Positions 30,236 to 45,335 of a DNA stretch of 64,000 nucleotides are shown in pieces. The notes under the pieces were generated by a model. That model saw nothing but the letters and a program-made list of their open reading frames with translations. It was not told the DNA's origin and ran no database searches. Numbering within the stretch: the first letter of the stretch is position 1; each line of letters begins with the position of its first letter. Both the position numbers and the translations under genes were made by a program. The stretch is taken from the NCBI RefSeq assembly GCF_014203955.1, contig NZ_JACHKA010000001.1, forward strand, positions 992,001-1,056,000, given 5' to 3'. This DNA is from Sphingobium lignivorans (lineage in GTDB: Bacteria; Pseudomonadota; Alphaproteobacteria; Sphingomonadales; Sphingomonadaceae).

Positions 30236-30266
30236 TTCCGGCTCCGGTCTACTGCCGGAGTCGGAA
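30236..30266. terminator. Bidirectional hairpin between phyR and histidine kinase gene
   Basis: TTCCGGCTCCGG and CCGGAGTCGGAA form a 12-bp stem (one wobble) with a 7-base loop covering the 3' ends of the two convergent genes. Position and stem strength fit a shared terminator. Confidence 0.5.
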
Positions 30267-31901
30267 GGACTTGGGCTTGCGTAGGGGAATGGCGAACTGG
30301 CAGCGCAAGCCACTCTCCGCAAATTCGATCGTGATCGGACTGCCCAGCTCCTGAGCCAGCGCGCGCTGGATGAGGTTGAGGCCGAAGCCACGCGATTTCG
30401 GCTCCGTCACTGCCGGGCCGCCGCTTTCCCGCCATGAGACCGCCACCAGATCCGAGCCGGCGATATGCCAGCTGATGTCGACGCGTCCGTCTTCCGTGGA
30501 GAGCGCGCCATAGCGGGTGGCATTGGTCAGCAGCTCGTGCAGCGCGAGCCCGATTGACAGCGCATCATTGGGCGAGATCAGGATGCTGGGGCCATCGATG
30601 TGGATGCGGCCGGCTTGCGCAGGCGAGCTGAGCTGCGCCTCGACCAGCCCCTTGAGATCCGTGGGGCCCCATTGCGCCCCATCGAGCAGGGAGTGGCTCG
30701 CGGCGAGGGCCCGCACTCGCTCGAGAAGATTGTCGGTGAAGCTGTTCAGGTCCGCCGCATTGCGCCGGGTCAGCGAAATGATCGAGGTGACGTTGGCCAG
30801 CGAGTTCTTCACCCGGTGATTGAGTTCGCGAACGAACGCGGCGCGTTCCGTCTCTCGTTCCGCCTGGGCCGACACAAGGGCCTCCAGATCCTCGTTGCGG
30901 CGCTGGACAAGGAGAATATAGGCCAGCAGCAGCAATGCGAACGAGATTCCGCCGACGAGCACGACGAGCGTCAGGGGGCCGAGTGATGTGCCCCCGGGCG
31001 GGTAATAGCGCAGCAGCCATTGCTGGTCGAAGACCGCAAGGCGCTGCTCTGCGGGCGATCCGAGAGAATGCCCGGTCTTGCCGGAGGTATAGATCAGCTC
31101 CTGCCCTTGCGAGGTGAGATCATAGATATCGACGCGGCCTTCCTCGGGCATGCGCGTCTCGACCGCGGCCGCAATGAACTCCCGGGTTCGGATGGGGCTG
31201 TAGACATAGCCCTTGAACCGATTCTCGGGTCCAAGCGTGCGGACGGGCATATAGACGAGGAAGCCCGGTGACTTGGCAGTGTTGCCGTCCTGAATGAGGT
31301 GCACCGGGTCGCTCGCGGCGACGGCATTGGTGCGGCGCGCGCGATCCATGGCGGCAGCGCGCCGCGCTTCGGAGTACATGTCGAAGCCGAGGGCTATTCG
31401 ATTAGGCGGCGTTTCAGGCTGAAGCATCGTGATCACCTGAAGCAGGCGCGCGTCCCGCCGCGGCTTCGGATAGATGCGGAAGTCGATATGTCCCTGCTCG
31501 ATCATCCGCCGTTCGACCTTCGCGACGTCACCGGGCATGATGGTCTCGGACCAGCCCATGCCAAGCACACCGGTCAAGTGTTTCGGTAACCGCAGGCGAT
31601 CGACGAATTCCTGGAAAAAAGCCGGGGAGACGTCCATCGAACTCATGAAAAGCGCGCTGGTGGACTGCAGGTAGGCGCGCGTCGTCGCAGCCTGACGCTC
31701 GATCGCGCCCGCTATCTCTCCCGCCTGTACTTCAGCAGCGGCACGATTTGTGCGTTTCGTCGCCAGTTCGACGGACCATGCACTGGCCCCGACCAACAGG
31801 AGTACGATCAGAAAGACGGCAATCGGTGTGGCGCGTGGATATTCCCGCAGCCATCGGTCAAACCGACCCTTTGCCCATTCCCCAGGTTTCCAGCCCTTCA
31901 T
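30249..31901 (-). CDS. CHASE-domain HWE/HisKA_2 sensor histidine kinase
   Basis: A 550-residue membrane sensor kinase. One membrane helix near residues 25-45, a periplasmic CHASE ligand domain (about 75-280, with LTGVLGMGWSETIMPGDVAK, NRIALGFDMYSEARRAAAMD and GFLVYMPV), a second helix near 318-338, a short coiled coil, then the H-box FVRELNHRVKNSLANVTSII (phospho-accepting His), LLDGAQWGPTDLKGLV and the ATP site LALHELLTNATRYGALSTED. H, W and N positions fit the HWE/HisKA_2 superfamily used to phosphorylate PhyR in sphingomonads (the Pak/PhyP group). The His is present, so kinase activity is expected. Convergent with phyR, divergent from dps. Confidence 0.9.
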   Translation of the reverse strand: MKGWKPGEWAKGRFDRWLREYPRATPIAVFLIVLLLVGASAWSVELATKRTNRAAAEVQAGEIAGAIERQAATTRAYLQSTSALFMSSMDVSPAFFQEFVDRLRLPKHLTGVLGMGWSETIMPGDVAKVERRMIEQGHIDFRIYPKPRRDARLLQVITMLQPETPPNRIALGFDMYSEARRAAAMDRARRTNAVAASDPVHLIQDGNTAKSPGFLVYMPVRTLGPENRFKGYVYSPIRTREFIAAAVETRMPEEGRVDIYDLTSQGQELIYTSGKTGHSLGSPAEQRLAVFDQQWLLRYYPPGGTSLGPLTLVVLVGGISFALLLLAYILLVQRRNEDLEALVSAQAERETERAAFVRELNHRVKNSLANVTSIISLTRRNAADLNSFTDNLLERVRALAASHSLLDGAQWGPTDLKGLVEAQLSSPAQAGRIHIDGPSILISPNDALSIGLALHELLTNATRYGALSTEDGRVDISWHIAGSDLVAVSWRESGGPAVTEPKSRGFGLNLIQRALAQELGSPITIEFAESGLRCQFAIPLRKPKSFRLRQ

Positions 31902-31935
31902 TTACCCCAACCATTTGATCCCTCCCGCCTGCTTT

Positions 31936-31960
31936 GGAACTCTTTCGGATGGAGATCGTT
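31936..31960 (+). promoter_or_regulatory. EcfG-type promoter of dps
   Basis: GGAAC (31936-31940), 16 bases, CGTT (31957-31960), exact consensus, 34 bases before the dps start codon. On the opposite strand the same segment reads GGAAC-N16-AGTT, a one-mismatch site facing the histidine kinase gene, so the element may be bidirectional. Confidence 0.8.
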
Positions 31961-31993
31961 CCACTTTCCGTCCCGCCAACAGGAGAAGCCCCA

Positions 31994-32497
31994 ATGGCAA
32001 ATGCCGCACTGCAATCCAAGCCGAAGGAGCAATCTTTCGACACAGGAATCGATCGGGCGGGCATGGACGCCACGGCCGACGCGCTTGCGACAGCACTGGC
32101 AGACAGCTTCACCCTTTATCTGAAGACGCTCGGGGTTCACTGGAACATCGTCGGACCCAGCTTCTTCGGTCTCCATAAGCTGACGGAAGCTCAGTATGAG
32201 GATCTGGCCATCGCTATCGATGCGATCGCGGAGCGCATTCGCTCGCTGGGTCATCTGGCCCCGGCTGCCTTTGGCGATTTCGTCGAGCGCAGTGTCATCG
32301 AGAGCAAGACCACGCTCGCGAGCGCCGAGGATATGATCAGTGCGCTCATCAAGGATAATGAGGCGGTCGCGAAGCGCATGCGCAAGGCTGTTTCGGTCGC
32401 GGAGGATGCGGACGACGTGTTCACTGCGGACATGCTGACGGCCCGCATTGGCAAGCATGAAGAAAATGTGTGGATGCTCCGTGCGATCGCGTCCTGA
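31994..32497 (+). CDS. dps: Dps ferritin-like DNA protection protein
   Basis: A 167-residue member of the Dps family, a dodecameric ferroxidase that stores iron and protects DNA during stress. Ferroxidase-site residues are in LKTLGVHWNIVGPSFFGLHK and LTEAQYEDLAIAIDAIAERI (His, His, Asp, Glu), and the C terminus has TADMLTARIGKHEENVWMLR. A Lys-containing N-terminal tail (residues 1-30) may bind DNA. ATG at 31994 follows AGGAG. It has its own EcfG-type promoter and stands beside nepR-ecfG, so it is part of the general stress output. Confidence 0.94.
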   Translation: MANAALQSKPKEQSFDTGIDRAGMDATADALATALADSFTLYLKTLGVHWNIVGPSFFGLHKLTEAQYEDLAIAIDAIAERIRSLGHLAPAAFGDFVERSVIESKTTLASAEDMISALIKDNEAVAKRMRKAVSVAEDADDVFTADMLTARIGKHEENVWMLRAIAS

Positions 32498-32608
32498 GAC
32501 GTGGGTCGTATCGCTGCGCAAGCATTTGAATTTGATAAGATAGAGGCTTTTTGTCAGACCGTGGAATCTCATCTCGACATTTTCCCTCATGAGGGTGCAA
32601 GAAGGGCT

Positions 32609-32782
32609 ATGTCCAGCAAGCCGGATTCTCCTGATGGTGAGCCCCGGACCCCCAAATCCGGCAACAAGCCGGTTTGGGCGGACGGGCTTCGCCGGATGTA
32701 TGATGAAGTCGTCGACGAAAAGCTTCCCGACGAATTCATCGATCTTTTGAAGCGGCTGGATCAGAGCAGTGAGCGGAGCTGA
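32609..32782 (+). CDS. nepR: Anti-sigma factor NepR
   Basis: A 57-residue anti-sigma factor that sequesters EcfG until phospho-PhyR displaces it. The conserved helix pair is visible: KPVWADGLRRMYDEVVDEKL and PDEFIDLLKRLD, preceded by a flexible Pro/Ser-rich N terminus. Start at 32609 is chosen because GAAGGGC precedes it and the frame upstream is not protein-like. Its 3' end overlaps the 5' end of ecfG by 14 bases, so the two are translationally coupled, the usual arrangement of this locus. I see no exact EcfG-type promoter upstream. Confidence 0.93.
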   Translation: MSSKPDSPDGEPRTPKSGNKPVWADGLRRMYDEVVDEKLPDEFIDLLKRLDQSSERS

Positions 32783-33356
32783 TAAAGCGAAAGGCTTCGA
32801 TTTTCGGGCCGAACTCACCGGGGTGATCCCCCACTTGCGCGCCTTTGCTCGCGGTCTGTGCGGCCGTCCGGATTTCGCGGACGATCTTGTGCAGGAAGCG
32901 TTGCTCAAGGCCTGGGCCGCGCGCGAGTCCTTCCAGCCGGGCACCAGCATCCGGAGCTGGACATTCGTGATCCTGCGCAATGTCTATCTCAGCGACGCGC
33001 GCCGCAATCGGTTCCGGGGCGACTATGACCCCGATCTTGCCGAGACGCTGCTCAGCCAGTCGGCGAGCCAGGAGGATGGGCTTCACATGGGCGACCTGCG
33101 ATCGGCCATGATGCGCCTTTCTCCAGAACGGCGCGAGGCCTTGCTGCTCGTGGGCGCGGGCGGTTTCAGCTACGAGGAAGCCGCCGACATCGCGCAATGT
33201 GCGGTGGGCACGATGAAGAGCCGGGTAGCACGCGCACGCAGGAGCATCGAGGATATGCTCGGGGACAATCCCTCGGGCGGCGGCGGCAAGTCCCCTCCGC
33301 GCTCGGTGTCGCACCGGGAAATCCTGGACGACCTCGACAAGGTCGCCAATCTGTAG
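32769..33356 (+). CDS. ecfG: General stress ECF sigma factor EcfG
   Basis: A 195-residue ECF sigma factor (ECF15 type). Region 2: LTGVIPHLRAFARGLCGRPD, FADDLVQEALLKAWAARESF, TSIRSWTFVILRNVYLSDAR. Region 4: LRSAMMRLSPERREALLLVG, AGGFSYEEAADIAQCAVGTM, KSRVARARRSIEDML. A 25-residue Gly/Pro/Ser C-terminal tail follows. It directs RNA polymerase to GGAAC-N16-CGTT promoters, four of which occur nearby. Start is an in-frame GTG at 32769 overlapping nepR. Confidence 0.95.
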   Translation: MSGADKAKGFDFRAELTGVIPHLRAFARGLCGRPDFADDLVQEALLKAWAARESFQPGTSIRSWTFVILRNVYLSDARRNRFRGDYDPDLAETLLSQSASQEDGLHMGDLRSAMMRLSPERREALLLVGAGGFSYEEAADIAQCAVGTMKSRVARARRSIEDMLGDNPSGGGGKSPPRSVSHREILDDLDKVANL

Positions 33357-33358
33357 CT

Positions 33359-33386
33359 TTCGCCGGGGTGCATCGGCCCCGGCGAA
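33359..33386 (+). terminator. Hairpin after ecfG
   Basis: TTCGCCGGGG and CCCCGGCGAA form a perfect 10-bp stem with an 8-base loop three bases after the ecfG stop, followed by a T-containing stretch (CCTTCTTTG). Probable terminator or 3' stabiliser. Confidence 0.55.
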
Positions 33387-33443
33387 GGAGCCTTCTTTGT
33401 CCTCGCCTGCATTTCCGTGGACGCGGCCGGCGTAAGCTGGCAC

Positions 33444-33833
33444 ATGCCGCGCATGAACCTGCGTACCAACGGGAGCGAAGAGCGCCCTGTCCCGAGCGTG
33501 GTCCTGATTGTCGAGGACAACGCCATCATCGCAATGAACACTGAGTCGTTGCTTCTCGACCTGGGCGTGGCGGATGTCCGCAGCGCTTCGAGCGTGACCG
33601 ACGCCCTGGCGCTCATGGACGAAGTGGATTTCCAGTTCGCCATTCTCGATTTGCGACTCAGCGAGGATGAAACCAGCCTGCCGGTCGCCGAACGGCTCCT
33701 GAAGGCAGGCACGCCTTTCGTCTTCGCGACCGGTTTCGGGGAGGAGGCGGACATGCCGGCCGGTTTTTCACACGCCCCCATTCTCAAGAAGCCCTACGGG
33801 TTCGAGGATCTGTCGCGCGTCCTGCGCGGCTGA
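33444..33833 (+). CDS. Single-domain response regulator, FAT GUY type
   Basis: A 129-residue stand-alone receiver. Acidic pocket VLIVEDNAIIAMN, phosphoacceptor Asp in FAILDLRLSEDETS, and the segment PFVFATGFGEEADMP, matching the F-A-T-G-x motif of the FAT GUY receivers that act in sphingomonad general stress signalling (SdrG). The conserved Lys is in HAPILKKPYGFEDL. Start ATG at 33444 rather than the upstream GTG because the intervening residues are not conserved-looking. It probably relays phosphate between HWE kinases and PhyR, or acts as a phosphate sink. Confidence 0.88.
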   Translation: MPRMNLRTNGSEERPVPSVVLIVEDNAIIAMNTESLLLDLGVADVRSASSVTDALALMDEVDFQFAILDLRLSEDETSLPVAERLLKAGTPFVFATGFGEEADMPAGFSHAPILKKPYGFEDLSRVLRG

Positions 33834-33918: not shown

Positions 33919-36243
33919 TTACGCGGCGTCCCTTGAATTACGCCGGGGGGCGGGAAGGCCGAGCTTGCGCAGGAAATCCTCCAGCGCCATCGGGCGGCCG
34001 ATATGATAGCCCTGGATGATGTCGCACTCCATGCGGGCGAGCGCATCGAGGACATTCTGGTCCTCGACGCCTTCGGCCACAACCTGCATGTCGAGCTCGT
34101 GGGCGAGCTTGATGGTGGAGTTGATGAGCACGGCGTCGCTTCGACTGGTGAGCACCTGCCGGACGAAATTCTGGTCGATCTTCAGTTCCGAGGCCGGCAG
34201 GCGCTTGAGATAGGAGAGCGTTGACTGGCCGGTGCCATAATCGTCGATCGAGATGTGGACGCCGAGCGCGCGCAGCGCCTCCAGCTCGGCGATGCCCTGG
34301 TCGTCGGCCATGTTGGCGGATTCAGTGATTTCCAGCGTCAGCTTGTCGGCCGGCATGCCGTAAGTATCGAGGAGCACGCGCAGGGGCGCTTCCAGCCGGT
34401 TCTTGCCGAGCATGCGCATTGAGAGATTGACCGCGACCGACAAGCCCAGCGGTGCGAAATCGGCAATGGCCCGTTCGAGCACATAGAGCGTCAGCCGTTC
34501 GATCCGGCCCGCATCCTCGATGGCACGGACGAAACGGTCCGGCCGGATGAAGCCCCGTTCCGGGTGGCTCCAGCGGATGAGCGCCTCGGCGCCCGTGATC
34601 GCGCCGGCGTGGAGATCGAGCTTGGGCTGGTAGGCCACCCAGACGTCGCCGCGCTTCAGCGCCTGCTCGAACTCGTTCAGGATGGAGAGCTTCCAGAAGA
34701 CCTCGTCATCATCGGTCTCATAGCGCTCCCACAACACGCCGCGATTGATCGCGTTGGTCGCGGCGAGCACGGCCTTGGGGAGAGCTTCCCCCACGGAAAG
34801 CGAGGGCTCGTCGCAGAAGCCTGCGTTGAGAGCGATGTCGACGGTCAGCTGGTCGACCTGCACGCCCGGGCCGAACAGCGCTTCCAGGCCTTCGAGGCTT
34901 CCCACGACCTCCGGCACCTGTTCCTCGCTGCGCCAGGCGAAGCTGTGATTGTCGATCTGGTAGATGCGTTCATGGCCGGCGGCGAGAATCAGGCGGTCGC
35001 GGATCTTGCCGAGCAGCTTGCCCTGCGCAGCGAAGCCGAGCAGCGCGGTCGTCTCCACATAATTGCGCAGGCAGACGACGACGGTCACGCCTTCTTCCCG
35101 CTCGTTGAGCTCCATCGCCGCCATGTTGGGCAGGCCCGCCTCCGCCGACTTGGTGATGCGATCGAGCATCGATTGCGCGGTGGCCAGCAAGATATGCGCG
35201 ACCAGTCCCGCGCCGATCGCGATCGTGCCGGCGCCGATGTCCAGCCGGACGAGCGAGAGATGCTCGATGATGATCTGCCCGAGCGGGAAGGCGAGGATGC
35301 CCAGGGCCAGCACGAAGGAGCGGAAGAGCGCGGTCAGGGGGACGGCGGCGCAGACCAGCAGGAGTGCCGCAAAGAGAGCAGGCCAGTCGCCGAGATCGGT
35401 GGGCCTGCCGGCCAGCAGCGTTTCCGCCGCCACGGCCTGGATGTACATGCCCGCTACCTTGTTGTGATAAGGCACGCTGTACTGGTCGCCGATGCCGAAG
35501 GCGTCATAGCCCACCAGCACGGATTTGCCCTTGAAGAAGCCCTTGGGGAAATTGCCCGCGAGCACGTCGGCATAGGAGATATGCGGTATCCGCTCGGGCC
35601 AGTAGGACCAGTCGATGAGGAGCCGGCCCTCGTCGGGGAAGGTCGTCCCGGCGAGCGCTTGCGCGAGCACGGGCAAGGTTTCGCCCAGCACCGGCATGTT
35701 GAGCGGGATGCGGCGGTGGAACTGGTCCGGGTCGCTCTTCACCCAGATGCTCACCGGCGTGACGAAGGGCAGCAGCGCCGCCGTAGGCAGGGCCTGGTGA
35801 ACGTCCCGGGTGTTCAGCCGGTTTTCCAGCAAGGTGGCGAGATAGATATCGCTATGGCTGCGCGAGAGCGCCCGGGCGAACAATTTGTCCTGCCGGAGGT
35901 CCGCCGCCGGCTGGTCGAAAATGATGTCGAAGGCGATGCGGCGCGCCCCGTCGCCATCGATGGCGTCGATCAGTTCCCCATGGCGGCTTCTGGGCCATGG
36001 CCATGTGCCCAAGGTCTTGATGCTCTGGGTGTCGATGGTGACGACGACCAAGTCCCCGCTCGGGGGCTTGGGAAGATGTTCGTAGCGCTTCTCGCGGACC
36101 TGATTGTCGAAATCGCGACCGGCGCCAGCCAGCGCCGCCGCAATGCCAACTAGGCATGCAGCGATCAGGACCAGGCTGCGGGCCGACCTCGTCAGGCCCG
36201 CAAGGAGGCGCAATCGAACCATCTTCCATACTCGGGGCGACAC
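33919..36243 (-). CDS. CHASE2 - degenerate GGDEF - EAL cyclic-di-GMP phosphodiesterase
   Basis: A 774-residue membrane protein. N-terminal membrane helix (about 20-42), a periplasmic CHASE2 domain (about 43-290, with VTIDTQSIKTLGTWPWPRSR, IAFDIIFDQPA and GKSVLVGYDAFGIGDQYSVP), three further helices (about 290-370), a GGDEF-like domain in which the signature is replaced by IYQIDNHSFAW, and a complete EAL domain: GAEALIRWSHPERGFI, AVNLSMRML, LEITESANM, ISIDDYGTGQSTLSYLKRLP, ELKIDQNFV and VVAEGVEDQ. Metal-binding residues of active phosphodiesterases are present, so it should hydrolyse c-di-GMP in response to an extracytoplasmic signal. GTG 36243 or ATG 36222 may be the start. Confidence 0.9.
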   Translation of the reverse strand: MSPRVWKMVRLRLLAGLTRSARSLVLIAACLVGIAAALAGAGRDFDNQVREKRYEHLPKPPSGDLVVVTIDTQSIKTLGTWPWPRSRHGELIDAIDGDGARRIAFDIIFDQPAADLRQDKLFARALSRSHSDIYLATLLENRLNTRDVHQALPTAALLPFVTPVSIWVKSDPDQFHRRIPLNMPVLGETLPVLAQALAGTTFPDEGRLLIDWSYWPERIPHISYADVLAGNFPKGFFKGKSVLVGYDAFGIGDQYSVPYHNKVAGMYIQAVAAETLLAGRPTDLGDWPALFAALLLVCAAVPLTALFRSFVLALGILAFPLGQIIIEHLSLVRLDIGAGTIAIGAGLVAHILLATAQSMLDRITKSAEAGLPNMAAMELNEREEGVTVVVCLRNYVETTALLGFAAQGKLLGKIRDRLILAAGHERIYQIDNHSFAWRSEEQVPEVVGSLEGLEALFGPGVQVDQLTVDIALNAGFCDEPSLSVGEALPKAVLAATNAINRGVLWERYETDDDEVFWKLSILNEFEQALKRGDVWVAYQPKLDLHAGAITGAEALIRWSHPERGFIRPDRFVRAIEDAGRIERLTLYVLERAIADFAPLGLSVAVNLSMRMLGKNRLEAPLRVLLDTYGMPADKLTLEITESANMADDQGIAELEALRALGVHISIDDYGTGQSTLSYLKRLPASELKIDQNFVRQVLTSRSDAVLINSTIKLAHELDMQVVAEGVEDQNVLDALARMECDIIQGYHIGRPMALEDFLRKLGLPAPRRNSRDAA

Positions 36244-36348: not shown

Positions 36349-38442
36349 TTAGCCTTCCGCGATCTTGCCGCCAACCAGCCGTACCACCCGATCCGCTGCG
36401 GCGATCGTCTCCGGACGGTGCGCGATCACGATGCGCGTGATTCCAAGGGCACTGACCGCGCGATTGACGGCGGCCTCATGATCCAGATCGAGATGCGCGG
36501 TGCCTTCATCCAGCAGCAGCACATCAGGCCGGCGATAAAGTGCGCGAGCCAGCAGGATGCGCTGTTTCTGGCCCCCCGACAGCGTCGAGCCCATGTCCCC
36601 GACGAGCGTGTGATGGCGCATCGGCATCGCGTCGATGTCATCGAGGATCGAGGCCGCGCTCAGGCAGGCGCGCAGATGCTCCATGTCGACCTCCTCGAAG
36701 GAAGCGACATTATCGGCGATCGACCCGGCGTAGAGCACGTCGTCCTGCAGCACCGCCGCGACATGCTGGCGGAAGGCGCGGCGGCCATATTGGGAGAGGG
36801 GGCGCCCATCGATGAGCACGTCGCCCTGCACGGGATCGACAAGGCCGAGGATGATCTTGGCGAGCGTGCTCTTGCCGCCGCCCGAGGGGCCGGTGATGGC
36901 GATATGATCCCCCGGCGCGATCGACAGGTCGATGCCCGCCAGCACCAGCGGGTCATGCGCTCCGTAGGAGAAATGCACGTTGCGCAGCTCGATCCTGCCC
37001 TCGAATGCGGGCTGGACCAACGGCTCGGCGAAACCACGGTCCTCCTGGGTCTGAGCAATGTCGGCGATCTGATCGAGATGAAGATCGAGCAGGCGCAGCT
37101 TGATCCCTTCGTCCAGGAGCGATTGGCCGGCCTGCACGAACTGCTGGCGATAGGCGAGATAAGCGAAGAGCGTGCCCAGGCTGAGCGCCCCCGCCATGCT
37201 TCCCCGAATGGCGAGGAACACGACCAGCACCAGCTCGATCGCGGGGATGAGCGTTTTCGCGGTTTCGTGCCAGGCCTTGACCCGCTCGTGAAGGTAGCGC
37301 GCGCCCAGCGCATCAGTGAGGCGGTTCTGCCAATAAGCATGCCGCATGGCCTCGCGGCCGGAGAGGCGCAGTGTGACGATGCCGCGCAGGGTCTCGATCA
37401 CGGCACCCTGCTCGCGGGCCAGCGCCTTCACATATTCCGCCTCGCGCTGCTTCTCCGCGCGCAAAAGGCCGAGGCGGACGGCGCTGTAGGCAAGGAGGCC
37501 GAGCAACGAGACGAAGGCGAGCTGCGGGGCGATCAGCAGCATCATCACCAGCGTCAGCACCGAGAGCAGGCCGTCGATGAGCGCGATCGGCGCGCTCTCG
37601 ATGAGGAACCGCTGGATCGGAAGGATGGATTGGAACCGGGTGAGGATGTCCCCCACCTTCCGCTTTTCGAACCAGGCGATCGGCAGGCGGAACAGGCGCC
37701 GCGCCAGATTGGAGGTGATGCCGTAGGACAGGGCGGCACCGGAGGAGAGGAGAACGAGCTTGCGCAGCAGCGAGGCGCCCGCGCCGATCAGCGCCAGCGC
37801 CGCAAAACCCACCGCCAGCGTGATGAGCAGGTTGCTGTCCAGGCTGGAGAGCGCCTCGTCCACGGCCGTGCGCAGGTAGAAGGGCGAGGCAAGCACCCAT
37901 GCCTGCATGACGATGCTGAGGATGATCGTTTGCGCCAGCGCGCGGCGCAGGCCGGTGATGCCGCTCCACAGGTCCCGGAACCGCAGCGGCCGCTTCGACC
38001 GCACCGCGCGGAAATCCTGCGAAGGTCGCAGTTCCAGCGCGACGCCGCTGAAATGGCGCCCCACCTCGTCGAATTCATACCAGCGCGCGGTCCCGGCCGG
38101 ATCGACGATATAGGCCCGCTCCCGCTCTACGCGCTCCAGCACGACGAAGTGATTGAGATCCCAGTGGAGGATCGCGGGCAGGTTCAGCAGGTGCAGGCCC
38201 GCCATTTCGAGCTTGAGCGGACGCGGCAGCAATTGCATCGCATCCGCCGTCTGCATGAGCTGGCGAAGCGACATGCCCCGGGCACTGACGCCAAAGCGCT
38301 GGCGCAGCATGTTGAGGTCTATCTCATGGCCATGCCAGTTCGCGATCATCGCGAGCGCGGCGAGCCCGCATTCCGCCGCTTCGGTCTGGCGAATGAGGCC
38401 GATCCGCCGGCGACCGGAAAAATTGGCGGGGAAGATGTTCAT
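36349..38442 (-). CDS. C39 peptidase-containing ABC exporter for double-glycine leader peptides
   Basis: A 697-residue bifunctional exporter (PCAT type). Residues 1-135 form a C39 cysteine protease: catalytic Cys in RQTEAAECGLAALAMIANWH, His in LHWDLNHFVVLERV and Asp in AYIVDPAGTARW, all present. Then comes a six-helix ABC membrane domain (about 160-440) and a nucleotide-binding domain with Walker A ITGPSGGGKSTLAKIILG, signature STLSGGQKQRILLARALYRR, Walker B PDVLLLDEGTAHLD and switch His in IVIAHRPE. It would cut leaders after Gly-Gly and export the core peptide. ATG at 38442 overlaps the HlyD stop (ATGA). The 31-codon precursor gene lies upstream of the HlyD gene. Confidence 0.94.
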   Translation of the reverse strand: MNIFPANFSGRRRIGLIRQTEAAECGLAALAMIANWHGHEIDLNMLRQRFGVSARGMSLRQLMQTADAMQLLPRPLKLEMAGLHLLNLPAILHWDLNHFVVLERVERERAYIVDPAGTARWYEFDEVGRHFSGVALELRPSQDFRAVRSKRPLRFRDLWSGITGLRRALAQTIILSIVMQAWVLASPFYLRTAVDEALSSLDSNLLITLAVGFAALALIGAGASLLRKLVLLSSGAALSYGITSNLARRLFRLPIAWFEKRKVGDILTRFQSILPIQRFLIESAPIALIDGLLSVLTLVMMLLIAPQLAFVSLLGLLAYSAVRLGLLRAEKQREAEYVKALAREQGAVIETLRGIVTLRLSGREAMRHAYWQNRLTDALGARYLHERVKAWHETAKTLIPAIELVLVVFLAIRGSMAGALSLGTLFAYLAYRQQFVQAGQSLLDEGIKLRLLDLHLDQIADIAQTQEDRGFAEPLVQPAFEGRIELRNVHFSYGAHDPLVLAGIDLSIAPGDHIAITGPSGGGKSTLAKIILGLVDPVQGDVLIDGRPLSQYGRRAFRQHVAAVLQDDVLYAGSIADNVASFEEVDMEHLRACLSAASILDDIDAMPMRHHTLVGDMGSTLSGGQKQRILLARALYRRPDVLLLDEGTAHLDLDHEAAVNRAVSALGITRIVIAHRPETIAAADRVVRLVGGKIAEG

Positions 38443-39644
38443 TGCCGCGCCACCGCTGCGAAGGGATCGACCAGCCATTGCAGGAAGGAGCGTCGGGCCA
38501 GCACGATCCGGGCATCGAGCGCGAGGTCCGGGCGCAGCACCACGTTGCGGGCCCGCTGCCGCTCGCTGAGCGGTTGGAGCCGCGCGGTGACCAGGAAATA
38601 AGGCTGCGCGTCAGCCACGGGCGCCGCGCCGACGGTCTCCACCACGGCGCGGAACGTGCCATAATCCTGTACCGGATAGGCTGGCAGCGTCACGCGCACG
38701 TCCTGCCCCGGTGCGATCTGGGCGATCGTGGAGGTCGGCACCCGGAGCTCGGCGAGCCACCCCGTGCCGGGCGGTACGATGCGGCCGTAGATCGTGCCGC
38801 GCGCCACGCTTTCCCCCTCGCGAAAGCGAAGGGCAGTGAGGATGCCGGCGCGGGGCGCGACGAGATCGATCGTCCCGGCATTGGCGAGCGTGGCGCCTTC
38901 GCGCCGCACCTGCGCGAGCTGCGCGTCATAGCTGCCCTGTCCGGCCCGCAAATGGCTGGCGAGCTGATCCCGCTCGATGCGCGCGGCTGTAAGGGCATTG
39001 GCGTGGAGGCTGCGGCTCTGCTCCAGCCGAGCCAGGTCCTGACGGCGCGTGATGAGCAGTTCGCGCCGTTCCTGGAGATCGCGGCCGGAAATGAAGCCAT
39101 CCCGCGCCACCGCCTCGACGCGCGCCAGCTCCTGCCGGGAGGAAGCGATCAGTGCCTCCTGCGCTTCGATCTGCCGGTCGATCGCGCCGATCTGGCGTTC
39201 CTCGTCGCGAATGCGCTCGTCCAGCTTGCGCCGGTTTTCCTCGATCGCTTCGCCGGCGGCGCGGCGCTGCGTGGCGAGGGCGGCTTCCTCCTGGCCGAGT
39301 GCCTCGCGGCGCTCCTGCACCAGCGAGAGCCCGTCGGCGGCCTGGGGGCGCGCGATGCGGGCAATGAGCTGGCCTTCCCGCACCGGCTGACCTTCGCGCA
39401 CGAGGACCGAGGCGATCACGCCATCGTCCGGCAAGGCGATGCTGGCGACGCTGGTGGCGGGGCGCAACGTGCCGCTGGCTTTGATCGTTCGGCTATAGGA
39501 GCCGAGCGTCAGGAAGAGGACGAGGGCGAGGACAAGCGCCAGCAGCAGCCAGCCGATCGCCTGCCAGCGCAACGGCGGCACGAGGAACACCTCGCCATGG
39601 AGGCGGTGCTGATGATCGAGGGCCTGTTGCCTGAAGAGCTGCAT
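38439..39644 (-). CDS. HlyD family membrane-fusion adaptor of peptide exporter
   Basis: A 401-residue periplasmic adaptor. A cytoplasmic N terminus is followed by one membrane helix (WLLLALVLALVLFLTLGSYS, about 32-52), a lipoyl half-motif with DDGVIASVLVREGQPVREGQ, a long alpha-helical hairpin with coiled coil (about 105-255), the second lipoyl half LVAPRAGILTALRFREGESV and a beta-barrel domain to the end (APGQDVRVTLPAYPVQDYG). It connects the C39 ABC exporter to the outer membrane. It is coupled by ATGA to the exporter gene and begins 200 bases after the precursor peptide gene. Confidence 0.92.
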   Translation of the reverse strand: MQLFRQQALDHQHRLHGEVFLVPPLRWQAIGWLLLALVLALVLFLTLGSYSRTIKASGTLRPATSVASIALPDDGVIASVLVREGQPVREGQLIARIARPQAADGLSLVQERREALGQEEAALATQRRAAGEAIEENRRKLDERIRDEERQIGAIDRQIEAQEALIASSRQELARVEAVARDGFISGRDLQERRELLITRRQDLARLEQSRSLHANALTAARIERDQLASHLRAGQGSYDAQLAQVRREGATLANAGTIDLVAPRAGILTALRFREGESVARGTIYGRIVPPGTGWLAELRVPTSTIAQIAPGQDVRVTLPAYPVQDYGTFRAVVETVGAAPVADAQPYFLVTARLQPLSERQRARNVVLRPDLALDARIVLARRSFLQWLVDPFAAVARQ

Positions 39645-39771
39645 ATGTTCACCACCCTTGCCGGCTTCTAGGATGGCGGGCGGGGTCAGGGCTACAGCGA
39701 AATCGCGCGCGGGCGGCCAGGCGCGCCGCTCGGCGATCCGAAACGGGGCATCCGGTGCCGCAAACGAAAAT

Positions 39772-39810
39772 CCGGGCGGACAGGGGCCACGAAGCCCTTC
39801 ATCCGCCCGG
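39772..39810 (-). terminator. Hairpin between precursor peptide gene and exporter genes
   Basis: On the minus strand CCGGGCGGA pairs with TCCGCCCGG, enclosing an inner GGGC/GCCC stem, and the hairpin is followed by ATTTTC. It begins 34 bases after the stop of the 31-residue precursor and lies 127 bases before the HlyD start. Its form and place suggest a partial terminator that gives much more precursor than exporter transcript. Confidence 0.6.
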
Positions 39811-39844
39811 CTGTCATTTCAGTCCTTCAGCGGACTGCAACGGC

Positions 39845-39940
39845 TCAATTGTAGCCGCGAACACCCGTGTTCGATTCGTCGTTCGGCACGCCGCCGGCGA
39901 CAAGGTCAATTTCCTGCTCGTTGAGCTCTTCAATAATCAT
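39845..39940 (-). CDS. Double-glycine leader precursor peptide (putative microcin/signal peptide)
   Basis: A 31-residue peptide. Residues 1-17 are a textbook double-glycine leader: MIIEELNEQEIDLVAGG, with hydrophobic residues at the -4, -7 and -12 type positions and Gly-Gly at the cut site. The 14-residue core is VPNDESNTGVRGYN: polar, without Cys, Ser/Thr-rich or aromatic clusters typical of lanthipeptides. AGGAG lies seven bases before the ATG. It is the first gene of the unit with HlyD and the C39 exporter. No modification enzyme is encoded nearby, so the product may be an unmodified short peptide with antibacterial or signalling action. The gene is too small for ordinary gene finders; assignment rests on leader, SD and context. 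Confidence 0.85.
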   Translation of the reverse strand: MIIEELNEQEIDLVAGGVPNDESNTGVRGYN

Positions 39941-39957
39941 CGACGACTCCTGTTTTC

Positions 39958-39977
39958 AGTCGGCATTTCGGCCGACT
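39958..39977. promoter_or_regulatory. Perfect hairpin in the precursor leader
   Basis: AGTCGGC-ATTTCG-GCCGACT is a perfect 7-bp stem. On the minus strand it lies just before the SD of the precursor gene; on the plus strand it is followed by TTTT and would act as an intrinsic terminator against antisense transcription. Confidence 0.45.
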
Positions 39978-39985
39978 TTTCAGGG

Positions 39986-40020
39986 AATATAGGAAGGTTA
40001 ATCGAGCGTAAACCCGGGTT
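39986..40020 (-). promoter_or_regulatory. Candidate housekeeping promoter and operator of the precursor gene
   Basis: Minus strand TTTACG (40007-40012) and TATATT (39986-39991) separated by 15 bases could be -35 and -10 boxes, the spacing being short. The perfect palindrome AACCCGGGTT (40011-40020) overlaps the -35 and could be an operator. Confidence 0.35.
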
Positions 40021-40239
40021 AACCCTTAGTTGCGACAGATGGTTATTGAAGATAAAATTATGTAAAATCAATAACATGTTGCAGCATTGGGGCTGCATGC
40101 CTTGCGAGATGATGAGTCTGCACAGCCTCTGATGGTTGAACTGTCCCAAAACGGGCCACCGCATCATTGGCGCGTTTCGTCTGACTCGCCATTGACGAGG
40201 TAGCCGCAGTCAGCAGCGATGGCCCGGTTGAGATCGATC

Positions 40240-41010
40240 CGCCTCTGACTCGGGTGTCCCCTAGGATAGCCGGAAGCCAACCGGTTCCGGCCAGAAGCCG
40301 CTCGGCGGTCTGCACCAGGTCCCCGGTTTCTTCATGTCGGCGATACGGCGGTCAGCGCCCTCCTACACGCCGTGGGTACGGCCTTGAGATAGTTCACGCG
40401 ACGAAGGTGGGGGCCAGTCCTTGGTACGTCCAGCGCCAGCGGGGTCGCCAGCCTATCCGCTGTTTGCAGCAAACTGGGCTTGCGGTCCCACTGCAACGGC
40501 ATTCACGGTACGAGACGTGCAATGCGCCAGCAGCACCAAATGCCTCTCGAAGTCCAGCCCGACGATGAAGCCCCACAGGTCCGCTACGTCACGAGGCATC
40601 CGCTCGGCCCATGCCTCGTGCCGCTCGCTCGCCTTCGCGGCCTGCGGGGTATCCTCGCTCCAGTCAGCGTGACCCCCGAGCGGCGTCACGGTCGGACGAA
40701 CATCAAGGTAGCCCGCCTCGCTTAGCTGCAGAAGAGTTGCGCCGTGAGTATGTGACTCAGGGCGATCAGCGCCAGATCGGGCCGCTCGCCAAGCGCTACA
40801 CGCAAGGCCGGGTGTTCGACAGGCGGACAGGTCGCGGGTAAGGCTGCCGGAAATCGGCCGCCCGGTTCCTCATCCTCTTCCTCGATCTCCTGCGTCCTCG
40901 TCGCTGTCCTCCGCCTGCTCGTCCGCGACGGCCCGCGGGCCGATGGCTTCGCCTTTGCTCTGCAGCGAAGCCCGCCAACCGGTCGATCCGGCGCCGCGCC
41001 CCAGGCAATC
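40240..41010 (-). pseudogene. Decayed parB/RepB-like partition gene
   Basis: Three fragments of the C-terminal half of a ParB-like nuclease-domain protein appear in order in three minus-strand frames: HPALRVALGERPDLALIALS with HILTAQLF (about 40730-40830), YLDVRPTVTPLGGHADWSED with RHEAWAERMPRDVADLWGFI and LLAHCTSRTVNAV (about 40470-40710), and AERLLAGTGWLPAILGDTR (about 40250-40315). These match the order in plasmid-type ParB proteins. At least two frameshifts and lost segments show it is dead. It is probably a relic of a plasmid or integrative element. Confidence 0.65.
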
Positions 41011-41122
41011 AAGCAACAATCGAACGGTGTATGGGCGGCCGAACTGGCCAGAGTTGGGTAATCGGCGCCGGTTATTCCAGACAGAGAAGGCGGGCGACCG
41101 CCGGGATCGCCCTTCAGGCGCC

Positions 41123-42262
41123 TCAGTTGGTGTTCTGCACCGTCTGCACCGCAGCCGTAATCGTCAGGATGGGTGAAAACAGCTGGCTGATCAACTGGAT
41201 GAGCTTGCTGGGCTGGTTGGCCGCGGCATTGCCGAAGTAAAGCACATCCTTGTCTCGCATGGCGAAACGCTGGGCGAGGAAATACGACCCGGTCTTCATC
41301 ATGTTGACATGATAGACCATCGGTATCTCGTTGCCCTGCTCGTCGCGGACATAGCGGAACAGGAAGATCGCGGCGGGATTGCCGATGCTGGGATTGACGC
41401 CGCCGGCAGTCGCGATCGCCTCGGCGAGGGAAACCGACGACCGCCTGAACGGAACCTGTTCGACTCGCCCGGAAGCGCCCAGCACCGAGAAGGTGCGGGG
41501 ATCGTCGATCAGCGTCAGGCGGTCGCCCGGATAGGCGCGCACATCCAGTTTCGGATTCTCGACGAGGTCGTTGATGCGCAAGTCAACACTTTGGCCGCCG
41601 CGAACGATCCGGAGAAGCAGGTCCTTGGCCTCTCCTCGATAGCCACCGGCAAGCGCGATCACGTCGGACAGCGTTTCCCGATTCGTCTGCAACACGAGAC
41701 GGCCCGGCTTTGCCACTTCGCCCCCGACGATGATCGAATTGGTGATGGCCTGATTGAGCGTGACGATCACTTGCGGATTTTGCGACATCCCCGCCAGCGA
41801 ATTGCGAATCATCGTCTCGACTTCGCCGGTCGTGACCCCCGCGACATGAAGCGTGCCGGCATAGGGAATGCTTATGTCGCCAAGGTCATCCACCCGCGTG
41901 GGCGGCAGCTTCTGTACCTGCACGCCGGGACTGGCGCCGACCTGGCTCAATCCCCCACTTCCGCCAGCGGCCGAAAACAGCGTGACCCCGGCTTCGTAGA
42001 TATTGATGTCCAGCACGTCGCCCGGACCGATCATGTCGGTCGGCGGTGGTGCCAGCTCGGGCAATAGCCCCGCCGCCACCTGATCGGCTTCCGGAACATC
42101 CGCAATCGTCTGGATGGGGACAATCTGGATCGGCGAGGCTTCATGCCCGGGCGTTTGGGCCGTTTTCTCGATCTGCCCCCTGGTAGGACCATTGGAGGGA
42201 AGCGTGGCGCAACCCGCAAGTCCTGCAAGCAGGACCAGAAAAACGCTATTCTTAACTTGCAT
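41123..42262 (-). CDS. Outer-membrane polysaccharide export protein (Wza family lipoprotein)
   Basis: A 379-residue lipoprotein of the Wza/KpsD polysaccharide export family. The signal peptide ends in the lipobox LAGLAGCATL (lipidated Cys about 20). A poly-sugar-export domain (PPPTDMIGPGDVLDINIYEA onward, about 75-185) is followed by SLBB domains: IIVGGEVAKPGRLVLQTNRE, RAYPGDRLTLIDDPRTFSVL and GASGRVEQVPFRRSSVSLAE. It would form the outer-membrane channel that works with the divergent KpsE/KpsM/KpsT-type ABC system. A GTG at 42265 is an alternative start. It is transcribed away from kpsE with a 181-base divergent region. Confidence 0.92.
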   Translation of the reverse strand: MQVKNSVFLVLLAGLAGCATLPSNGPTRGQIEKTAQTPGHEASPIQIVPIQTIADVPEADQVAAGLLPELAPPPTDMIGPGDVLDINIYEAGVTLFSAAGGSGGLSQVGASPGVQVQKLPPTRVDDLGDISIPYAGTLHVAGVTTGEVETMIRNSLAGMSQNPQVIVTLNQAITNSIIVGGEVAKPGRLVLQTNRETLSDVIALAGGYRGEAKDLLLRIVRGGQSVDLRINDLVENPKLDVRAYPGDRLTLIDDPRTFSVLGASGRVEQVPFRRSSVSLAEAIATAGGVNPSIGNPAAIFLFRYVRDEQGNEIPMVYHVNMMKTGSYFLAQRFAMRDKDVLYFGNAAANQPSKLIQLISQLFSPILTITAAVQTVQNTN

Positions 42263-42443
42263 CACTGATGAACTCGGAGGCTTGCGGCATCGATGGCCGC
42301 ACGCCTTAGCACCGGGACCGGAGAATGGACAATAGTTCCTCTTGCCATAGCCTCGGCAGGTCGCTGCTTGGCCTTGCGCCCCGCTTCATGTTGGCCTAGC
42401 GCAGGACGGCTCAGATACCCATGTCAGGCATTACAAAGACTTT

Positions 42444-43607
42444 ATGAACGTAAACCCATCGTTCCCCGTCGAGGCCGAAGCGACGGTCCATCGATCCGCA
42501 TTTTCTCAGTGGATGAGGAAACGACGCTGGTTTCTGGGGTTCGTCGTGGCACCGACGATCCTGGCTGCGACCTATTATGGCCTGATTGCCTCTGATGTCT
42601 ACATTTCGGAGTCGCGGTTCGTCATCAAAAGCCCTGACCGGAAGGGATCGCAAGTCTCCACCCTGGCCAATCTGGTCCAGACGACCGGACTTTCCGCGGG
42701 GCAGGAACAAACGAATGAGGTGCTCGCTTACGTGCGCTCGCGTGATGCCCTCAGAGCCCTGGAAAAGAATTCGGGCATTCGCGAGCGGTTTTCGTCAAGC
42801 CTTGCCGATCGCTTCTCCCGATTCCCGCATCCGTTTTCCGACAGCAGTTTCGAGAGTTTATTCAAATATTACGACGGTATGATTGACGCTCGTCTTGATA
42901 CCAGCACGGGCACTGCCATCATTAAGGTGAAAGCCTTCACTCCCCAGGACGCTTACATAATCAATCGTCAGTTACTCGACCTGAGCGAGGGGCTCGTCAA
43001 TCGCCTGAACGCCCGCTCGCAAACCAAGAGCATCGCCGAAGCTCAAAGGCAGGTCGATCTTGCTACTGAAAGGGCTAGAGCAGCTCGGGTGGCCTTGGCG
43101 CGGTATCGCAATACCCAGGCATTGATCGATCCAGAGAGGCAGGCAGCGGGAGTTCTGGAACTCGCCAATAGCATGATTGGTGAACGGGCCGCCCTGCAGG
43201 CTCAGCTCGACCTTATGCAGCGTGTGGCCCCGAACAACCCGTCGATCCCCGCGCTTCGCAGCCGGATCAATGCAATCACGGTTCAGATCGCATCCCAGGA
43301 CGGCCGAGTGGTCGGCACCGGGAGCGGCATTGCTTCCAAAATGGGCGACTACGAGAACCTTCTCGTCGAGCAGGAATTTTCGACCGAAAGCCTGAACGTA
43401 GCCAATGCGGCCCTCGTGCAGGCAAGGGCCGAAGCCCAGCGGCAGCAATTCTATCTCGAGCGCGTTGTTAACCCGAACTTGCCGGACACGCCGCTCCTTC
43501 CGAAGCGTATCCTGAGTGTGATAATTTTCGCTGCGGCTGCGACCTGCCTTTACTTCATCGCATGGATGTTTGTGACAGGCATTCTTGAACACGCGCCGGA
43601 AGACTGA
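42444..43607 (+). CDS. kpsE: Capsule export inner-membrane protein, KpsE/CtrB/BexC type
   Basis: A 387-residue polysaccharide co-polymerase-like protein. Membrane helix near residues 29-48 (WFLGFVVAPTILAATYYGLI), a periplasmic part with SESRFVIKSPDR and a long coiled-coil region (about 185-340), and a C-terminal helix RILSVIIFAAAATCLYFIAW. The N-terminal WFLGFVVAPTILAATYYG-x(5)-YISESRFVIKSP and the C-terminal PNLPDTPLLPKRILSV are hallmarks of KpsE-type proteins linking ABC exporter to the outer-membrane channel. It begins the plus-strand operon with kpsM three bases downstream. Confidence 0.92.
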   Translation: MNVNPSFPVEAEATVHRSAFSQWMRKRRWFLGFVVAPTILAATYYGLIASDVYISESRFVIKSPDRKGSQVSTLANLVQTTGLSAGQEQTNEVLAYVRSRDALRALEKNSGIRERFSSSLADRFSRFPHPFSDSSFESLFKYYDGMIDARLDTSTGTAIIKVKAFTPQDAYIINRQLLDLSEGLVNRLNARSQTKSIAEAQRQVDLATERARAARVALARYRNTQALIDPERQAAGVLELANSMIGERAALQAQLDLMQRVAPNNPSIPALRSRINAITVQIASQDGRVVGTGSGIASKMGDYENLLVEQEFSTESLNVANAALVQARAEAQRQQFYLERVVNPNLPDTPLLPKRILSVIIFAAAATCLYFIAWMFVTGILEHAPED

Positions 43608-43610
43608 ACA

Positions 43611-44408
43611 ATGGCTGATGCCGGCTTTCAAAGACTGCAATCGGGATGGGCGACGCAGGTTCGTGTAATTCATGCCCTCATGATCCGCGAGCTGCATACG
43701 AGGTTCGGCCGAGAAAATATCGGCTTCCTTTGGATCATGGTCGAGCCCCTATTGTTCGCAATTCTCGTGGCGATCGTCTGGAGATTTATAAAAGGGCCAG
43801 AAGAGCACGGAGTAAGCATCGTTGCTTTTGTGATTTCTGGATATATCCCCATCACCTTATTTCGACACGGAGTTTCACGAAGCACTTCGGTGTTTACGGC
43901 TAATTCTAGTTTATTATATCACAGGCAAATAAAGATTCTTGATTTCATATTGGTCAGATTTGCTATCGAGGTTCTGGGCGGTATGATGGCTTATTTATTT
44001 ATCGCGCTAATATTGATACCGCTTCAACAGTTCCCAATTCCAGCGGATATAGGTTTATTTATCGCGGGCTGGTTTACTTATGCAATATTCTGCTTTTCCC
44101 TTTGCTTGGTGATCGGGCCACTTTCTGAAATGTCAGAAGTTGTCGAAAAATTTGTTCCAGTTACAACATATATCATGATTCCAATTTCCGGCCTGTTTAC
44201 CATGGCATCATGGGTCCCTCCTCCGTTAAGGGACTATCTACTTTATTCTCCATTTGTGAACGCAATGGAGATGATGCGCAAAGGTCTATGGGGGGATCAG
44301 GTAACCGCCTATTACAGTATATGGAACCCAATTGGCTGTTCCATGGTGGCCGCAGCAATCGGCCTTGCTCTTTGTCGTCGCGTACGCAGGACCCTCACTG
44401 TCGAATGA
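43611..44408 (+). CDS. kpsM: Capsule ABC transporter permease, KpsM type
   Basis: A 265-residue ABC-2 permease with six membrane helices. Typical segments: VIHALMIRELHTRFGRENIG, FLWIMVEPLLFAILVAIVWR, VSIVAFVISGYIPITLFRHG, SLLYHRQIKILDFILVRFAI and PLRDYLLYSPFVNAMEMMRK. It forms the inner-membrane channel for a lipid-linked polysaccharide. The gene is notably richer in A+T than its neighbours, especially from 43,880. Its stop overlaps the kpsT start by ATGA. Confidence 0.93.
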   Translation: MADAGFQRLQSGWATQVRVIHALMIRELHTRFGRENIGFLWIMVEPLLFAILVAIVWRFIKGPEEHGVSIVAFVISGYIPITLFRHGVSRSTSVFTANSSLLYHRQIKILDFILVRFAIEVLGGMMAYLFIALILIPLQQFPIPADIGLFIAGWFTYAIFCFSLCLVIGPLSEMSEVVEKFVPVTTYIMIPISGLFTMASWVPPPLRDYLLYSPFVNAMEMMRKGLWGDQVTAYYSIWNPIGCSMVAAAIGLALCRRVRRTLTVE

Positions 44409-45052
44409 TAATTTGTCAGAATATCTGTAAATCGTACCCACAAGGTGCGGGACGGAAACGCGTGCTCGATGATGTCAATCTTATCGTTGAGCGGGGAGAA
44501 CGCGTCGCATTGCTTGGTCGCAATGGGGCAGGCAAGAGCACCCTCATTAAGTTAATCGGCGGCGTCGAGATGCCGACTTCGGGCAAGATTACCCGGCAGA
44601 TGTCCACTTCCTGGCCATTGGGTTTTGCAGGCGGCTTCCAAGGCAGTCTGACCGGTTACGACAATGCTCGATTCATCGCCCGTATCTACGCGCGGGATTA
44701 TACTCAGATTCGAGCATTTATTGAGGATTTCACCGAACTGGGAAGCCAACTAAAGATGCCGGTGAAGACCTATTCATCGGGCATGCGCGCGCGCTTGGCA
44801 TTCGCCCTGTCGTTGGCGATCGAGTTCGACTGCTATCTGATTGATGAGATCATCTTGGTCGGCGACCAAAACTTTCATCGGAAATGCCATTACGAACTTT
44901 TTGAAAAGCGCAGTGACCGCGCCATGATTCTCGCGTCGCATAGTTTAGATATTGTACAGAAATACTGTAATCGTGCAGTAATTATAGATAAATGCAAAGC
45001 AATTAATCATCCAAATGTGGATATTGCTATCGCAAATTACACAAAGCTATAA
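44405..45052 (+). CDS. kpsT: Capsule ABC transporter ATP-binding protein, KpsT type
   Basis: A 215-residue ATPase. Walker A is VALLGRNGAGKSTLIKLIGG, the signature KTYSSGMRARLAFALSLAI, and Walker B FDCYLIDEIILVGDQNFHRK, with the glutamate and the V-G-D-x-x-F-x-x-K tail typical of KpsT/CtrD. Switch His is in ILASHSLDIV. MIICQNICKSYPQG is the normal start. It ends in an A+T-rich stretch before the IS3 remnant, so no further capsule gene follows on this strand. Confidence 0.93.
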   Translation: MIICQNICKSYPQGAGRKRVLDDVNLIVERGERVALLGRNGAGKSTLIKLIGGVEMPTSGKITRQMSTSWPLGFAGGFQGSLTGYDNARFIARIYARDYTQIRAFIEDFTELGSQLKMPVKTYSSGMRARLAFALSLAIEFDCYLIDEIILVGDQNFHRKCHYELFEKRSDRAMILASHSLDIVQKYCNRAVIIDKCKAINHPNVDIAIANYTKL

Positions 45053-45335
45053 ATTGAAAATATAAAGTAAAACATGAAATAATTCTGATTTTTAGTATCA
45101 TATCTAGATTTTTATTATATAAACATGACAGGTGTCAGTGTGAATTTCTGCCCCACGTTTAAGGCGTAGGCTGACATCATGCGGAACCTGCGGAGCTGAA
45201 AAGCCAACTGCTTTAGCTATCATTGTCGCAATTGTTGGCGCGGCGCCTGCCCTTCTGCCTCGTACACGATGGCGCCGTGACGTTCTCGGCTGAAATGTGA
45301 GCGATTTTGAGTAGAGCCCGATGTGGAGGGGTCGG
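45053..45335. other. A+T-rich gene-free stretch before IS3 remnant
   Basis: About 280 bases without a credible frame. The first 80 bases are strongly A+T-rich; the GTGAATTTCTGCCCC segment near 45,140 might be the left end of the IS3-family remnant but cannot be confirmed. Confidence 0.4.

Follow-up and report, generated by a model that had tools for sequence, protein, structure and literature searches.

We asked what the smallest gene of an exporter locus in Sphingobium lignivorans encodes, and which protein would perceive its product. The locus lies in a stretch of 64,000 nucleotides (the window; contig NZ_JACHKA010000001.1, positions 992,001 to 1,056,000). The original prediction had placed there a 31-residue precursor peptide of the double-glycine (GG) type, whose gene carries a good Shine-Dalgarno (SD) sequence and stands directly upstream of genes for an HlyD protein and a C39 peptidase-ABC exporter. 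This small gene is real: 9 of the 94 genomes compared within the genus encode it, it is under purifying selection, and the reversed control sequence yielded none. On sequence evidence we regard the gene and its pairing with the C39 exporter as solid, with very little room for doubt. The likely partner of the peptide is encoded downstream of the exporter, beyond the coordinates that the original prediction covered, and was overlooked there: a protein with CHASE2 and EAL domains. We propose that this CHASE2-EAL protein is the receptor of the C39-processed peptide signal and relays it to cyclic di-GMP (c-di-GMP), a reading that rests on the association of peptide and protein across genera and to which we give a probability of roughly 0.58. 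The parts of the proposed system are:

39845..39940, minus strand: precursor peptide gene, 31 residues, double-glycine type (translated open reading frame (ORF) with homologues in the genus)
39890..39940, minus strand: leader MIIEELNEQEIDLVAGG (leader profile E 1.2e-6)
39848..39889, minus strand: core VPNDESNTGVRGYN, 14 residues, ~1521.5 Da if unmodified
38439..39644, minus strand: HlyD-type membrane fusion protein, 401 aa, starting ~200 bases downstream of the peptide gene
36349..38442, minus strand: 697-aa C39 peptidase-ABC exporter; no other C39 match in the genome at E <= 0.001
33919..36243, minus strand: 774-aa protein with CHASE2 and EAL domains and, between them, a degenerate GGDEF-like part (seen by eye); proposed receptor and predicted c-di-GMP phosphodiesterase

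The ORF at 39845-39940 translates to MIIEELNEQEIDLVAGGVPNDESNTGVRGYN, in which hydrophobic leader positions and a Gly-Gly pair are followed by a short core, as in a double-glycine precursor. Its leader is the sole match to the leader profile at E <= 5 in its own genome. Across 11 examined genomes the profile found one GG peptide per genome at E < 1e-3, and the further matches, present in 4 of these genomes, were weak (E 0.26 or more); ORFs combining a GG-leader score of at least 20 with an SD numbered 0 in 1602 kb of reversed control sequence. The original prediction had called for a search for the small frame in orthologous loci, and this comparison, in which one peptide (that of L013) was missed by the regular-expression search and recovered by a separate one, showed that the leader and the GG site are conserved. 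All eight distinct precursor sequences share E5, L6, E8, E10, V14, A15, G16 and G17 and, in the core, E22, R28 and G29. The cores are 12 to 16 residues long and follow the consensus xPNxESxTGxRG plus 0 to 4 extra residues, with ESxTGxRG as the conserved motif. The pooled pairwise dN/dS (ratio of nonsynonymous to synonymous rates), calculated from pairs that are not independent, was 0.22 for the leader, 0.38 for the core and 0.28 for the ESxTGxRG stretch. The core is polar (mean hydropathy -1.34 over 14 residues), and the 31-residue gene probably yields this 14-residue segment as an exported peptide.

Does the neighbouring exporter look able to process such a precursor? The Cys, His and Asp of its C39 domain, which we take to be the catalytic residues, align with those of the double-glycine protease in PDB entry 6mpz; they had been described as intact, and the alignment bears this out, so that the protein has the domain expected of a cognate exporter. 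The 3' end of hlyD overlaps the start of the C39-ABC gene. The helical region of HlyD proteins is expected to reach the outer-membrane channel. In three genomes, the HlyD orthologue is shortened, to 190 residues (L016, 8118-8690), 185 residues (L017, 7332-7889, from a single-contig genome) and 163 residues (L019, 8018-8509); these short proteins keep the N-terminal anchor and the last part in frame but lack the middle, where the lipoyl part and the helical region lie. Because this middle region is gone, the periplasm may suffice as the destination of the peptide in these three genomes. Export to the periplasm, seemingly enough there, would fit a periplasmic receptor and weakens any reading of the peptide as a matrix component or a microcin.

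The CHASE2-EAL gene starts ~105 bases after the C39-ABC gene, and the conserved row of genes extends to a receiver gene behind it. Its 774-aa product matches the Pfam families CHASE2 (E 7e-39) and EAL (E 3e-64). Aligned with the MucR phosphodiesterase (PDB 5m1t), the EAL part keeps E553, N606, E638, D667, D668, K688, E724 and Q744, presumably the residues that bind metal and substrate; to judge by them, the protein has what an EAL phosphodiesterase requires. The same residues are present in at least 90% of the peptide-linked clade described below and in at least 85% of the other aligned proteins. Hydropathy suggests that a single membrane helix precedes CHASE2 and that about three follow, a layout from which CHASE2 is predicted to be periplasmic. 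The periplasmic domain carries clade-specific residues, including W167, W212, Y224, F236 and D247, that occur in 0-8% of other CHASE2-EAL proteins and are candidates for a binding site.

We then compared the occurrence of the parts within the genus. The CHASE2-EAL orthologue (57-100% identity) is present in the same 9 of 94 genomes as the peptide, with a sharp gap in the matches (orthologues down to E 1e-132, the next best at E 1e-37). An orthologous exporter, with at least 76% identity over the C39 part, was found in 8 of the 94, all of which encode the peptide; in the ninth peptide genome (G057) the contig ends inside hlyD. Distant C39 exporters (42-53% identity) occur in 8 other genomes of the genus, none with such a peptide. 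The order peptide-HlyD-C39-CHASE2-EAL is kept in all eight loci that are long enough, two of them from one species. Of seven loci with the peptide, three belong to named records (Sphingobium sp. SYK-6, S. xanthum NL9 and S. nicotianae H33) and four to metagenome assemblies.

The association persists outside the genus. C39 matches at E <= 1e-20 were found in 41 of 397 genomes of the family, at 42 places, and we compared the stretches around all of these, around 8 further places in the genus and around 4 peptide hits. Related peptides were found in two further genera. One of them (G106, locus L070) encodes ..LAAVAGG/TGDGRGGNTGVEGIV followed by HlyD, C39 and CHASE2-EAL, in the order of the window. 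In the other (G319, locus L074), the gene for MEKKEQTVVVELTEAEIAAVAGG/KVLEGNTGVEG immediately precedes a CHASE2-EAL gene, and the 19.5 kb of this locus hold no C39 exporter, receiver, sigma or HWE kinase gene; merely a weakly similar HlyD/ABC pair lies ~5 kb away. The single C39 exporter of G319 at E <= 1e-20 is encoded at a separate locus (L062), and a quick tree made without bootstrap places it in a different clade from the exporter of the window. Peptide and CHASE2-EAL thus adjoin each other where the exporter is of another lineage; provided that the trees hold, the exporter gene was replaced or relocated while this pair remained side by side. In an IQ-TREE phylogeny of 61 sampled CHASE2-EAL proteins, built without L012 (a near copy) and without L080 (truncated by the contig end), the peptide-linked proteins form one clade of 10 with support 100/99: nine whose own stretch also holds a GG peptide and that of G057, whose peptide is on another contig. 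Among the 51 CHASE2-EAL proteins outside this clade, none had a GG peptide in the fetched stretch. Joint inheritance of the peptide and its proposed receptor is therefore seen across genera and is weak inside the genus.

If CHASE2-EAL is the receptor, the signal could travel as follows. A short transcript of the peptide gene, partly reading through to the exporter genes, would give the precursor; the C39 domain would cut behind Gly-Gly, and the ABC exporter and HlyD would export the 14-residue core from the cytoplasm. Once in the periplasm, and perhaps after diffusion between cells, the core would be sensed by the CHASE2 domain of the protein encoded downstream, and sensing would alter c-di-GMP phosphodiesterase activity and thereby a switch in lifestyle, for example in attachment or capsule formation. 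The gene, its conservation, the exporter motifs, the EAL residues and the lasting link to one CHASE2-EAL clade can be read from the sequences, and from these we infer transcription, peptide cleavage and export, receptor binding, and the direction and output of the effect.

A second set of C39 loci bears on whether CHASE2 might receive GG peptides more widely. At seven loci (L063, L065, L066, L067, L069, L072 and L076) a histidine kinase with HisKA and HATPase domains is encoded (7/7), with CHASE2 above the Pfam cut-off in five and a weak receiver-like end in most. A tryptophan-containing GG peptide directly adjoins the kinase gene in all seven, and six hold further GG-type peptides; the cassettes include HlyD and C39. 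An oppositely oriented gene encodes a regulator, whose domains (GerE/LuxR and receiver) were determined for L063 alone. The layout resembles the scheme of bacteriocin regulation in Gram-positive bacteria, here with a CHASE2 sensor, and looks like a separate association of CHASE2 with GG peptides; it is the main support for the wider claim. According to that claim, which we put forward tentatively and at less than even odds, CHASE2 serves as a receiver for self-made double-glycine peptides, acting through c-di-GMP breakdown in one lineage and, in another, through a two-component system in which a CHASE2 hybrid kinase is joined by a LuxR-type regulator. The signal of the c-di-GMP lineage would need just the periplasm, because three species lost the HlyD part meant to meet the outer-membrane channel, and it would then be private or short-range, reporting the cell's own export activity as much as quorum. 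A GG peptide with a core like VTEGPNGEGCTEP recurs in the C39 loci L059, L065, L066, L072 and L076.

How far does the association reach? Pfam CHASE2 matches lie within 10 kb of 14 of 55 C39 places, against ~0.53 pairs expected from rough genome sizes; eight of the 14 are the window locus and its orthologues and others among them are related, so these are not 14 independent events. Because peptides of these C39 loci served to train the leader score matrix, its 54 hits there are partly circular, while its zeros elsewhere are not. The general rule that CHASE2 proteins go with GG peptides had to be rejected, as the link was seen solely in one CHASE2-EAL clade and one kinase lineage. An 11-bit hit in L174, one of the short loci L150-L175, was dismissed because it resembles a fragment of an EAL frame.

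Several observations weigh against CHASE2-EAL as the receptor of the peptide. A GG peptide was found in none of 40 CHASE2 loci away from C39 at a threshold of 10 bits (one of these loci, L136, belongs to the peptide clade and has its peptide on another contig, L018), in none of 20 wide CHASE2-EAL loci and in none of 29 loci of a class-wide search (3 from the family of the window); these loci are samples, and more CHASE2 matches exist than loci fetched. The kinases of L065 and L066 show no CHASE2, and L071 (G316) falls in the C39 clade of the window and has a GG peptide, yet its genome gave no CHASE2 match. The single clade of CHASE2-EAL proteins may reflect a single coupling event, and the nine peptide genomes could form a single subclade that has several genes of its own. 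In Sinorhizobium meliloti, sensing through CHASE2 proteins also requires the outer-membrane protein NsrA, according to the cited parts of two papers (PMC13001267, PMC7529298). Within the genus, the receiver gene (at least 51% identity) stands beside CHASE2-EAL in 8/8 loci and the sigma factor gene is kept in 6/8, some stretches ending too soon. Homologues of both genes, at lower identity, are present in 35/35 examined peptide-less genomes of the genus (hand-picked from 85); the best sigma match is 53-58% identical there versus 79-82% in the peptide genomes of species other than that of the window. As receiver and sigma genes also track the peptide, co-occurrence within the genus does not by itself point to CHASE2-EAL in particular. 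(In L071, the GG precursor, on the minus strand from 12472 and downstream of the C39 exporter, has the 7-residue core VGHIRTF and is followed by a hairpin-like repeat.)

These neighbours and the genes on the other side of the peptide suggest two alternatives:

33417-33833, strand opposite to CHASE2-EAL: receiver gene of the conserved row
30249-31901: CHASE-HWE kinase gene, near the peptide-exporter unit
41123-45052: capsule-export genes

The peptide could be a signal with another receptor, for example the CHASE-type HWE kinase feeding the receiver and the sigma factor, or an unlinked protein. In the window (30249-33833) and in most orthologous loci, the kinase, a sigma-70 factor and the receiver adjoin the unit (the kinase in 5/8 loci, with the same limit on stretch length as for the sigma factor). 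Yet G319 lacks all three within 19.5 kb and keeps peptide and CHASE2-EAL together (the contig of G106 is too short to tell), and the receiver and sigma homologues of the peptide-less genomes also count against this idea, which we consider quite unlikely. A slightly better case, still an improbable one, can be made for an exported effector such as a biofilm or matrix component resembling EbfG, with CHASE2-EAL regulating the same lifestyle without sensing the peptide. Turnover of c-di-GMP usually controls biofilm formation, capsule-export genes lie nearby, and in Synechococcus elongatus GG proteins and the C39 exporter that releases them are required for biofilm, as far as the cited part of that study goes (PMC4997328). 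Against this, cores of 12-16 residues are small for a structural component, matches to the capsule genes came from only 2 loci, both of the same species, and the peptide remains beside CHASE2-EAL where the exporter gene sits elsewhere.

The original prediction had left the choice between a short exported signal and a very small microcin; the former is supported, while the latter is disfavoured and in our estimate very improbable. Class II microcins typically have GG leaders and C39 exporters, and the leader of the window peptide gave weak matches below the cut-off to NF038167 (E 0.0054), NF000539 (E 0.031) and PF04604 (E 0.08). However, the core is hydrophilic rather than hydrophobic or amphipathic and is conserved across species, and among the conserved genes (HlyD, C39, CHASE2-EAL, receiver) none was recognisable as an immunity gene, although the row may hold a tiny unrecognised ORF. 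Just as remote is a ribosomally synthesised and post-translationally modified peptide (RiPP) whose enzyme is encoded elsewhere: the conserved Ser, Thr and Glu of the core are modifiable and a distant enzyme is possible, but no maturation enzyme was found among the conserved genes or the eight scanned neighbours (six with a Pfam match). The earlier statements that no modifying enzyme is nearby and that the peptide is unlike class II bacteriocins and lanthipeptides thus held up.

The gene for the proposed signal is flanked by elements that bear on its expression:

39947..39951, minus strand: Shine-Dalgarno AGGAG, 6 bases ahead of the ATG
39959..39976, minus strand: hairpin GTCGGC..GCCGAC ahead of the SD (by eye in the alignment)
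39984..40022, minus strand: promoter-like block with TTAAC, TTTACG, 17 bases, TATTCC and a second TTAACC (alignment of nine loci)
39767..39810, minus strand: terminator-like hairpin CCGGGCGGA..TCCGCCCGG followed by TTTT, directly 3' of the peptide gene

The 11 bases ahead of the ATG, AGGAGTCGTCG, are identical in 9/9 loci, two of which belong to one species. GTCGG/CCGAC or a paired variant is found upstream in all nine (again by eye), and the block TTAAC..TTTACG..TTAACC recurs in all nine, with single changes in some. This block may be the promoter, although an automated scan did not make that call. A strong hairpin separates the peptide gene from hlyD in 9/9 loci, with a T-run in seven; that of the window was not among the calls of the automated scan either. 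Such a layout would give a separate short transcript, with presumed read-through into the exporter genes. Between the promoter region of the peptide and the capsule-export genes (40087-41120) there is no convincing ORF, and this part resembles a decayed gene region. Beyond the capsule genes, overlapping ORFs at 45323-46456 resemble what we take to be a frame-broken IS3-type transposase. A comparison concerning plasmid origin gave only partial, distant matches for the whole region, none covering 80%, and no match for the peptide region alone.

Other GG-type peptides turned up in the survey. An identical precursor, ..LTISEIKMVSGG/QTCGEGNTEVTTEPTYCDTAGG.., is encoded near C39 exporters in three genomes of the genus (L096 4397, L098 7042, L099 7106). 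Tandem arrays of 9 to 10 GG-leader peptides stand near HlyD/C39 genes in two genomes of another genus (L103 6427-8576, L104 7249-9310), and several such peptides in L105; the cores of these arrays carry GHELTHVQQ, LLLPAVQAAREA and GIRATKGAGIR repeats, of which the first presumably resembles DUF4157 proteins and the second DUF1559 proteins.

Finally, we asked how the proposed system compares with known ones. Gram-positive double-glycine pheromones such as ComC/ComA, Blp and plantaricin PlnA use C39 exporters and share with the present locus the GG leader, processing and export by a C39-ABC protein, a short core and a nearby receptor gene. Their receptor is an HPK10 histidine kinase, whereas here a CHASE2-EAL protein in a Gram-negative host is proposed. 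The ComC/ComD or Pln type is defined by an HPK10-type histidine kinase receptor and a LytTR regulator, and neither was found near the unit, which has CHASE2-EAL, the CHASE-HWE kinase, the lone receiver and the sigma factor. The EbfG1-4/PteB system of S. elongatus is alike in its Gram-negative host, small GG proteins, C39 export and effect on lifestyle; it consists of four co-transcribed small proteins, and the cited part of the paper mentions no CHASE2-EAL partner (PMC4997328). In Nostoc, the C39-type exporter HetC has likewise been proposed to release a signalling peptide; it has a ppGpp-binding cyclic-nucleotide domain and an unidentified substrate, and a CHASE2 partner is not mentioned in the section cited (PMC10986499). 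The CHASE2 adenylate cyclases CyaK and CyaD1/D2 of S. meliloti, a precedent in favour of our reading, are membrane proteins that answer a peptidic signal, uL2, through a cyclic nucleotide; as far as the cited passages go, the signal is a foreign ribosomal protein and the output cyclic AMP, with no mention of a self-made peptide and its exporter (PMC13001267, PMC7529298).

Signal peptides are few in Gram-negative bacteria. The claim that this peptide and its role are undescribed fits our searches of open-licence PubMed Central (PMC) papers, none of which combines CHASE2 with double-glycine, and the papers there on SYK-6 and c-di-GMP held nothing relevant. The factors recognised by CHASE2 were not known according to the cited part of a 2016 paper (PMC5192318). 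If our proposal is true, CHASE2 would gain a self-made peptide ligand, and a single protein would link an exported peptide directly to c-di-GMP. The named Sphingobium strains, with one strong GG peptide, a C39 exporter and a candidate receptor, would then offer a small and testable genetic system.

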